DNA of 64,000 bases, from positions 62,001-126,000 of the forward strand of contig JAJVHS010000045.1 of NCBI GenBank assembly GCA_022072615.1, written 5' to 3'. The translations under genes were made by a program, and so were the position numbers. Source of the stretch: Phycisphaerales bacterium. Its GTDB lineage: Bacteria; Planctomycetota; Phycisphaerae; Phycisphaerales; UBA1924. Of the stretch, positions 6,531 through 10,107 are shown piece after piece. A model generated the notes under the pieces. The model worked only from the letters and a program-made list of their open reading frames with translations, did no database searches and was not told the DNA's origin. Every line of letters begins with the position of its first letter. The stretch's first letter is position 1.

Positions 6531-7958
6531 ATGACCACCGTGCTTCGGGAACCGACGCTCGCCGGGCGCGACCGGCGGCTGGATGCGATCGCCGAGAAGG
6601 TCGATCGCGGGGATCGGCTTTCGCTCGCCGACGGCGAGCTGCTGTACGCGACGCCGGACCTGTACACGGTGCTGGGGCTTGCGGACAAGGTCCGCCGGCG
6701 GCTGCACGGGTATGCCGCGTACTACAACATCAACCGGCACCTCAACTATTCGAACGTGTGCGCGCTGTCGTGCAAGTTCTGCGAGTTCTACCGCAAGCAG
6801 GACCAGGAGGGCGCGTACACGCGCGACATGGCCTACGTGCGTGAGGAGGCTCGAAAGGCGGTCGAGGCGGGCGCGACGGAGATGCACTCGGTCGGCGGTC
6901 TGAACCCGTACCTGCCGTTCTCCTACTACACCGAGCTGGTCGCGACGATCCGCGACGAGGCGCGCCGGCTCGGCAGCGACCTGCACGTCAAGGCCTTCAC
7001 CGCGGTCGAGATCGTGCACCTCGCGAAGATCGCAAAGGTGTACAAGGGCGCCAACGCTCCCGGCGAGGAAGGCCGAGCGGCCCGGCGTGAGGCGATCCGC
7101 TGGGTGCTGACCGAGCTCAAGAACGCGGGCCTGGGGTCGCTCCCCGGCGGCGGGGCCGAGGTGTTCGACGACCGCGTGCACGACGAGGCGTACAAGGGCA
7201 AGATCCGCAGCGACGTGTGGCTCGACGTGCACCGCGTGGCCCACGAACTGGGCCTGAACACCAACGCGACCATGCTGTACGGGCACATCGAGGACCGCCG
7301 CGACCGACTGGTTCACATGCTGATGCTCCGGCGAGCCCAGGACCAGGCGCTCGCGAGGCTGGGGTACACGGGCGTCGCTCCCACGTGGAACGTGTGCGTC
7401 CAGGAGTCGGAAAGCGGGCACCTGGGATACCGCGGCGAAACCTCGGACGCGCCGGTGATCACGCTGACGCGGCCCGGGACGCCGCTCCCCGAGCACCTTG
7501 CCTTCGGCTCGTCCGCCACCGGCCAGCCCGCAGCCGGCGGTGCGTCTGGGTACTACCAGACCATCATCCCGCTGCCGTTCTTCCCCGACGGCAGCGAACT
7601 CGAGCACCTGCCCGGGCCGAGCGGCCTCGAAAACCTGCGCACGCTCGCGGTAGCGAGGCTGATGCTCGACAACTTCCCGCATGTCAAGGCGTTCTGGATC
7701 ATGCAGACGCTGCCGATGGCCCAGCTCATGCTCCAGAACGGCGCGGACGACCTCGACGGCACGGTGGTGTGGTACGACATCACGAAGGTAAACCACGGCG
7801 CCGGGCAAGGGTCGGGGTCGGCCGCGACCAACCAGGAAGTCAACGTCTGGACGCTCCAGAAGGCGATCCGCGAGGCCGGATTCGAGCCCGTCGAGCGGGA
7901 CACCCTCTACCGCCGGGTGAGCCGCGACACTGCGGACGGCCGGCGCTGGAGCGTGTGA
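6531..7958 (+). CDS. mqnE: Radical SAM aminofutalosine synthase (futalosine menaquinone pathway)
   Basis: NINRHLNYSNVCALSCKFCEFYR (CxxxCxxC cluster), GATEMHSVGGLNP, AFTAVEIVHLAKI, FWIMQTLPMAQLMLQNGADDLDGT. Confidence 0.82.
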   Translation: MTTVLREPTLAGRDRRLDAIAEKVDRGDRLSLADGELLYATPDLYTVLGLADKVRRRLHGYAAYYNINRHLNYSNVCALSCKFCEFYRKQDQEGAYTRDMAYVREEARKAVEAGATEMHSVGGLNPYLPFSYYTELVATIRDEARRLGSDLHVKAFTAVEIVHLAKIAKVYKGANAPGEEGRAARREAIRWVLTELKNAGLGSLPGGGAEVFDDRVHDEAYKGKIRSDVWLDVHRVAHELGLNTNATMLYGHIEDRRDRLVHMLMLRRAQDQALARLGYTGVAPTWNVCVQESESGHLGYRGETSDAPVITLTRPGTPLPEHLAFGSSATGQPAAGGASGYYQTIIPLPFFPDGSELEHLPGPSGLENLRTLAVARLMLDNFPHVKAFWIMQTLPMAQLMLQNGADDLDGTVVWYDITKVNHGAGQGSGSAATNQEVNVWTLQKAIREAGFEPVERDTLYRRVSRDTADGRRWSV

Positions 7959-7965
7959 CGGCCTG

Positions 7966-7971
7966 TACACT
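7966..7971 (+). promoter_or_regulatory. -10 element TACACT, 6 nt before GTG 7978
   Basis: ctgTACACTtgccgcGTG; no SD. Confidence 0.55.
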
Positions 7972-7977
7972 TGCCGC

Positions 7978-8568
7978 GTGCCCGACACCATCGCGGCCGA
8001 ACCCTTCCGAACGTTGATGCGCCCGGGCCGCGGGCGGGTATACGCCGCACTGGCGTGCGTCTGCGTTGTCGGCGTCGTCACGGCGCTCGCGGAGATCTTC
8101 CGCGGCGCCGACTGGGTGCTGAACCTGCTGATCGAATCGATCGCGGTGGGCGCGGCGCTCATCCTGTGGACGGGCGGGAAACGCCGCGCCGGGCGCCCGC
8201 GGGCGCTGCTCGCGCTCCCCGTCGCGGCCTGGGCCACGGTGCCCGTCTGGCCCGAGCACATCTTCCGCTTCATCGGCGAACCGCTCGCGAACGCGATCCC
8301 GAGCTCATGGACGAGCACGCTCTCGTTCGGCGACTCGATCGGCTTCTTCGCGGCGATCATCGCAGTGGCGATGATCTCAAGCGTCATCATCCCGCTGTAC
8401 TTTCTCGCGACATGGTCCTGGCGCGTGGTGCTCGTCTCCCTCGCCAGCGCGGGGGTGGCCATCGCTGCCGTCCCCGTCCTGCTCTACTTGGACCCGCCGG
8501 ACGCGGTCGCGACCGCCATCGCAGTTCCGGTGATGTACGCCGCGAGCCTCGGGCCGATCGCGTGGTGA
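7978..8568 (+). CDS. Hypothetical multi-pass membrane protein; reading frame resumes after TGA as a zinc ribbon to 8688 (possible disrupted gene)
   Basis: Hydrophobic segments; after TGA 8566-8568 the same frame reads ALRTPRREPNACPQCGYDLTGLSARACPECGGGSPAGVA*. Confidence 0.65.
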   Translation: MPDTIAAEPFRTLMRPGRGRVYAALACVCVVGVVTALAEIFRGADWVLNLLIESIAVGAALILWTGGKRRAGRPRALLALPVAAWATVPVWPEHIFRFIGEPLANAIPSSWTSTLSFGDSIGFFAAIIAVAMISSVIIPLYFLATWSWRVVLVSLASAGVAIAAVPVLLYLDPPDAVATAIAVPVMYAASLGPIAW

Positions 8569-8691
8569 GCGCTGCGCACGCCGCGCCGCGAGCCCAACGC
8601 GTGCCCGCAATGCGGCTACGACCTGACGGGGCTTTCGGCCCGTGCGTGCCCGGAATGCGGGGGAGGCTCACCCGCGGGGGTGGCGTAGCCG

Positions 8692-8703: not shown

Positions 8704-10107
8704 GTGACCGGTGCAGCAGGTGATCGCGACGAGCACGCGAAAGGGTCGATGCACGACCCCTACGCCGCGCTGCGCAACCGCAACTACCAGCGGTACGCGA
8801 TCGGGTTCTTCAGCGGCGCGACCGGGCTGCAGGCCCTGGGCACCGCGATCGGCTGGGAGATTTACGACCGTACCGGGGACGCGCTGAGCCTCGGGCTCAC
8901 GGGGCTTGCCCGGGCGCTGCCGGTGGTGCTGCTCGCACTGCCCGCGGGCCACGCGGCGGACACGTACGACCGCCGGACGATCGTCGTGTGCTCGCAGGGG
9001 GCGTTTGCGCTGTGCGCCGTGGCGCTGGCGGTGGTGGCGTGGATGCACGCCCCGACGTGGATCATCTTCGCGATGCTGGTCTCGATGGGAGTCGCGAGAG
9101 CATTCAACGGGCCCGCCCGGAGTTCGTTCCTGCCGACCATCGTGCCGATGGACATCTTCCATAACGCGGTCGCGTGGACGAGCAGCGGGTTCCAGCTCGC
9201 GGCGGTGGTCGGCCCGATGGTCGCCGGCTGGATCATCCACGAGACGGGGTCGGCGACCGCGGTCTACCTGCTGGCGGCCGTCGGCAACGCGGTGTTCGCC
9301 GTCACCGTCACCACGATCACCCCGCTGACCCGGGCCGCGCCGTCGGGCAAGTACACCGTGGGCGCGATGCTCGCGGGCATGTCCCACCTGTGGCGCGAGA
9401 AAACCATCCTGGGCGCGATCACGCTGGACCTGTTCGCGGTGCTGCTCGGCGGCGCGACGGCCCTGATGCCCATCTTCGCCGAGGACATCCTCGACGCCGG
9501 GGCGGTGGGCCTGGGCGCGCTGCGGGCGGCTCCCTTCGTGGGCGCGTTCCTGATGGGCGTCTACATCGCGCACCGCCCGCCGTTCAAGCGCAGCGGCCGG
9601 GCGCTGCTGTGGTCGGTGATCGGGTTCGGCATCGCGACGATCGTGTTCGGGTTCTCGCGGAACCTGTGGCTGTCGCTGGCGATGCTCGTCATCCTCGGCG
9701 CTGTCGATAACATCTCGGTCGTTATCCGGCACGTGCTCGTGCAGGTGCGCACGCCCGACCATCTCCGCGGGCGTGTGGGCGCGGTCAACTCGCTGTTCAT
9801 CGAGTGCAGCAACGAGCTCGGGGCGTTCGAATCAGGCGCGGTGGCCAAGCTATTGGGCCCCGTGTTCGCGGTGGTTTCGGGCGGGATCGGAACGATCCTG
9901 GTCGCGCTGGGCGTGGGGGCATCGCTGCCCGAACTCCGGCGGCTGGGCGAGTTGAAGGAGGAGCCGGCGAAGGCCGGCGCCGCGGCACGACCGCCGCTCA
10001 CGACGACCACCTGCTCGACCTGCGGGGTGGAGCTGCCAAGCATGAACGAAGAGAAGTGCCCGGAGTGCGGGGCGACAATTCAGGAAGCGGAGACGAAGAC
10101 CTCCTGA
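8704..10107 (+). CDS. MFS transporter (EntS/MFS_3-like) with C-terminal zinc-ribbon tail
   Basis: About 12 hydrophobic segments; LPAGHAADTYDRRTIVV and NGPARSSFLPTIVP motifs; tail CSTCGVELPSMNEEKCPECGA. Confidence 0.85.
   Translation: MTGAAGDRDEHAKGSMHDPYAALRNRNYQRYAIGFFSGATGLQALGTAIGWEIYDRTGDALSLGLTGLARALPVVLLALPAGHAADTYDRRTIVVCSQGAFALCAVALAVVAWMHAPTWIIFAMLVSMGVARAFNGPARSSFLPTIVPMDIFHNAVAWTSSGFQLAAVVGPMVAGWIIHETGSATAVYLLAAVGNAVFAVTVTTITPLTRAAPSGKYTVGAMLAGMSHLWREKTILGAITLDLFAVLLGGATALMPIFAEDILDAGAVGLGALRAAPFVGAFLMGVYIAHRPPFKRSGRALLWSVIGFGIATIVFGFSRNLWLSLAMLVILGAVDNISVVIRHVLVQVRTPDHLRGRVGAVNSLFIECSNELGAFESGAVAKLLGPVFAVVSGGIGTILVALGVGASLPELRRLGELKEEPAKAGAAARPPLTTTTCSTCGVELPSMNEEKCPECGATIQEAETKTS

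Follow-up and report, generated by a model that had tools for sequence, protein, structure and literature searches.

A predicted membrane-protein gene in the window (the whole 64,000-nucleotide stretch of DNA analysed here) carries an in-frame TGA immediately before an intact four-cysteine zinc-ribbon tail, at a position where both same-genus orthologues encode the second residue of a Trp-Trp pair. We consider it probable that this is an ordinary nonsense allele, in which a conserved TGG has become TGA, so that the gene would now give a ribbon-less membrane protein and the tail would be an untranslated remnant.

An in-frame stop between membrane domain and ribbon

The frame before the stop reads ...SLGPIAW, its last Trp being encoded by TGG at 8563-8565, and a hydropathy scan placed the end of the final hydrophobic segment at this residue. 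Beyond the TGA the frame continues as ALRTPRREPNACPQCGYDLTGLSARACPECGGGSPAGVA and stays open until the TAG at 8686-8688; the stretches ALRTPRREPNACPQCGYDL... and ALRTPRREPNACPQCGYDLTGLSAR both belong to this downstream tail. The tail motif, CPxCGYDLxGL..CPECG, is in the same frame as the membrane part, and the four-Cys ribbon is complete (CPQCGYDLTGLSARACPECG), with all four cysteines and every ribbon residue retained. A first-pass annotation of this DNA had described the frame as running past the TGA into an intact zinc ribbon, and the sequence and its translation agree with that description in every detail. The coordinates are collected in Table 1.

Table 1 Features of the locus and of its same-genus orthologues (positions in the window unless a locus is named)
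Feature	Position	Strand	Remarks
MqnE/CofH-like radical-SAM gene, synteny anchor	6531..7958	+	same neighbour in both same-genus genomes
Membrane-domain part	7978..8565	+	196 codons from the GTG start codon, with several hydrophobic segments (hydropathy scan, orthologues)
In-frame TGA	8566..8568	+	second Trp of W-W pair in both same-genus orthologues
Four-Cys zinc-ribbon remnant	8569..8685	+	39 codons; Cys codons at 8602, 8611, 8647, 8656
TAG, probable ancestral stop	8686..8688	+	15 bases ahead of next gene
MFS_3-type transporter gene	8704..10107	+	own intact C-terminal CxxC...CPEC ribbon
Orthologue in G001:C119	L024:7696-8490		second of two tandem ribbon genes
Orthologue in G002:C2	L002:1381-2112	minus	

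The tail resembles coding sequence in its codon usage: its in-frame codon adaptation is 0.643, against 0.513-0.852 in 39-codon windows of the gene body. Genes are tightly packed here, with only 19 bases ahead of the GTG. The transporter gene begins 135 bases after the TGA and 15 after the TAG, so the TAG fits as the original gene end. In Pfam searches the membrane part matched no family and the tail was ribbon-like, with a DZR score of 22.6 bits against a curated cut-off of 27.3. By its four cysteines the tail would work like a ribbon; our guess is that it forms, or formed, a structural or metal-responsive cytoplasmic tail. C-terminal ribbons are common among membrane proteins here: that of the transporter lies at 10005-10104, and the G001 counterpart of the transporter is likewise ribbon-ended.

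Orthologues and the rarity of the stop

The source genome is a draft of 104 contigs with 92% completeness, and its genus comprises two other genomes, G001 and G002. In both of these an orthologue lies directly behind the same radical-SAM gene. Both orthologue frames run unbroken from the membrane domain across a Trp-Trp pair into the ribbon (GPVLWWAIWGEPRRTPGRCAGCGYDLLGL and APISWWLLAAPATPAARRCRACGYDLAGL), and the pair and the intact C-terminal ribbon occupy the place corresponding to our junction (GPVLWWAIWGEPRRTPGRCAGCGYDL; APISWWLLAAPATPAARRCRACGYDL). A three-way alignment set the TGA against the second Trp. Since both syntenic orthologues encode Trp-Trp there, we conclude that the TGA replaces a conserved TGG, the only Trp codon, which is one base away from TGA. 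The parsimonious explanation offered in the first-pass annotation, either a base-call error or a TGG-to-TGA change that turns W-W into W-stop, is thus supported by both orthologues. Alignment to homologues, which it had proposed as a check, gave Trp-Trp followed by a ribbon in each, and we found no homologue of the contrary kind that it had named, one that stops at this Trp and lacks a ribbon.

The in-frame motif, the unbroken syntenic orthologues and a tail codon adaptation within the range of the gene body together indicate that the stop-then-ribbon arrangement is more than chance. The gene itself is best explained as encoding a membrane protein that is restricted to this lineage and ends in a zinc ribbon. 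A scan of public genomes for the radical-SAM gene returned 80 loci, and in six further Phycisphaerales loci (L041, L051, L052, L087, L095 and L111) an unbroken ribbon-ended frame lies just 3' of it. At one more locus, L073:1644-2581 (JACMLW010000131.1, Phycisphaerales bacterium ES-bin-47), the ribbon and membrane segments behind the radical-SAM gene fall in different frames, with matches spread over two or three. This looks like an apparent orthologue that is either an independently decayed copy or poorly assembled. Because that apparent orthologue is independently broken, the membrane-plus-ribbon gene looks dispensable. In G001, two tandem membrane-plus-ribbon genes (L024:7039-7692 and 7696-8490) are followed by a transposase-like frame and then by a transporter, which suggests that the locus is variable.

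We also asked how often a stop precedes such a ribbon. The strict motif CxxCGY[DN]L occurs at 14 sites in the genome; this is the one site at which a stop stands between a long coding frame and its ribbon, and none of the other 13 ribbons is severed in this way. A family-wide search with a 53-residue junction query gave matches in 120 of 120 genomes, and among the roughly 150 stronger matches listed there was no junction stop other than the one in this gene. A TGA in G012:C13 was considered as a second case and set aside, as it is a natural end positioned after the ribbon. A literature search on this zinc-ribbon class in Phycisphaerae found no paper.

Two other stops near ribbons were noted. 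In L166 (minus strand, G092:C13:392323-392940), a frame with a hydrophobic end is followed by an in-frame TAA and then by a 45-residue ribbon tail; for its upstream part no orthologue was found in its genus, so we treated it as uninformative as a parallel. In L036 (G001:C32:40027-40221), a TAG lies within a hydrophobic stretch 5' of a ribbon (...FLASM*LIYRHG...CPHCGYDRAGSG) and is perhaps another Trp-to-stop change.

Reality of the base and decoding of the TGA

The tail keeps all four cysteines and body-like codon usage, so the change is either recent or not real. The latter case would mean an artefact of base calling, of assembly or of a mixed-strain consensus, with the organism itself having TGG and making the full membrane-plus-ribbon protein. 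That a single transition suffices, that the tail is without decay, that the genome is an incomplete draft and that its named relatives are nearly all metagenome-assembled would all suit such an artefact. Consensus errors of single bases are rare at ordinary short-read coverage, which counts against it, and comparison with the neighbours' ORFs over about 7.7 kb of the window brought up no further conserved gene that is clearly broken: the remaining stop-bearing alignments in those 7.7 kb lie beyond gene ends or belong to antisense or shadow frames. We therefore hold an artefact to be unlikely, while still giving it appreciable weight; on general grounds a real change is about four times as probable.

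The decoding apparatus of the genome is of the standard kind. Release factor RF2 is present and normal. Among the 46 tRNA genes typed in this 92%-complete genome there is a single tRNA-Trp, with anticodon CCA, and no tRNA with a UCA anticodon. Two tRNA-Cys genes (G000:C78:19773-19853 and G000:C82:3-83) have equal scores and both lie near contig ends; the assembly may have split or duplicated a single locus. No SelB scored over the cut-off in the same 92%-complete genome, the best match being sub-threshold and of EF-Tu size, and the sole tRNA-Sec model match over the cut-off sits on tRNA-Leu(UAA) and is not a true tRNA-Sec.

Decoding of the TGA by rule, as selenocysteine or under a code in which TGA means Trp, would agree with the Trp found at this position in the relatives. 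For selenocysteine, however, both SelB over the cut-off and a true tRNA-Sec are lacking, and we rejected a selenoprotein; a TGA = Trp code was rejected as well, as RF2 has not been lost, the only tRNA-Trp is the CCA form with a 5-bp anticodon stem, and neighbouring frames are not riddled with TGA. We regard decoding by rule as exceedingly improbable.

In functional leaky termination the near-cognate tRNA-Trp(CCA) would sometimes read the TGA, giving two protein forms, with and without the ribbon. The tail is intact, reading the stop in this way would restore the ancestral Trp, and basal leakage is plausible: UGA can be read by Trp and Cys tRNAs in bacteria, and such leakage is known in E. coli (PMC5373646). 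On inspection, however, this tRNA-Trp proved to keep G24 and an anticodon stem of the full 5 bp, whereas the variants tied to UGA reading have a 4-bp anticodon stem or G24A (PMC13092985). The presence of RF2 also speaks against leakage, as does the RNA context: in the 80 bases from the TGA the folding z score was 0.77, with 151 of 200 shuffles folding at least as well, and no Rfam element matched after the stop. Nor is the TGA present in either same-genus orthologue, and the arrangement does not recur among the genome's strict-motif ribbons or the family matches listed. Functional leaky termination is accordingly improbable in our estimate, and we give a slightly smaller chance to a leaky-stop switch of recent origin, in which the TGA would be read as Trp often enough to be useful and the one gene would yield the membrane protein both with and without a cytoplasmic ribbon. 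Were readthrough true, a zinc-binding tail would here be under the control of stop-codon leakage in a bacterium. Programmed stop-codon readthrough is not supported, given the Trp in both orthologues, the lack of a stimulating structure and the lack of any other junction stop among the matches listed. The first-pass annotation had likewise ranked readthrough as less likely, and the Trp carried by the relatives at the stop upholds that ranking.

A stand-alone ribbon peptide is also conceivable, as a ribosome terminating at the TGA could reinitiate nearby and translate the ribbon as a separate small gene. There is, however, no in-frame ATG, GTG or TTG from the TGA to the first Cys, and the orthologues carry the ribbon within one protein; we consider such a restart very improbable.

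A probable nonsense allele and its parallels

The ordinary nonsense allele thus remains our preferred explanation. The second Trp codon of the conserved pair, where the last membrane helix ends, would have become TGA through a single-base change. Ribosomes would then terminate there, presumably with efficiency, producing the membrane part without the ribbon and leaving the tail as an untranslated remnant that is still undecayed. By inference, we take the base to be real and the organism to tolerate losing the ribbon. Selection may be acting on the tail, the ribbon being fully intact, and this counts against the explanation. We see the gene mainly as a case for calibration: a TGA standing in frame ahead of an intact domain resembles recoding, but here two syntenic orthologues and a family junction survey show an isolated change.

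The closest counterparts, the G001 and G002 orthologues, share with this gene the position behind an MqnE/CofH-like gene, the membrane domain, the helix-end Trp-Trp and a C-terminal CGYDLxGL..CPECG ribbon; they differ in that their membrane domain and ribbon are joined without a stop, and overall identity is only about 28%. The tail has the two CxxC-type knuckles of the zinc ribbons DZR and Zn_ribbon (PF12773, PF13240 and PF13248), and as every match is under the Pfam curated cut-offs we describe a likeness and claim no membership. From ordinary nonsense alleles, or pseudogenes in the making, the case has no specific difference, and it shares with them a stop created by one base in a frame that is intact elsewhere, and a short, undecayed downstream remnant.
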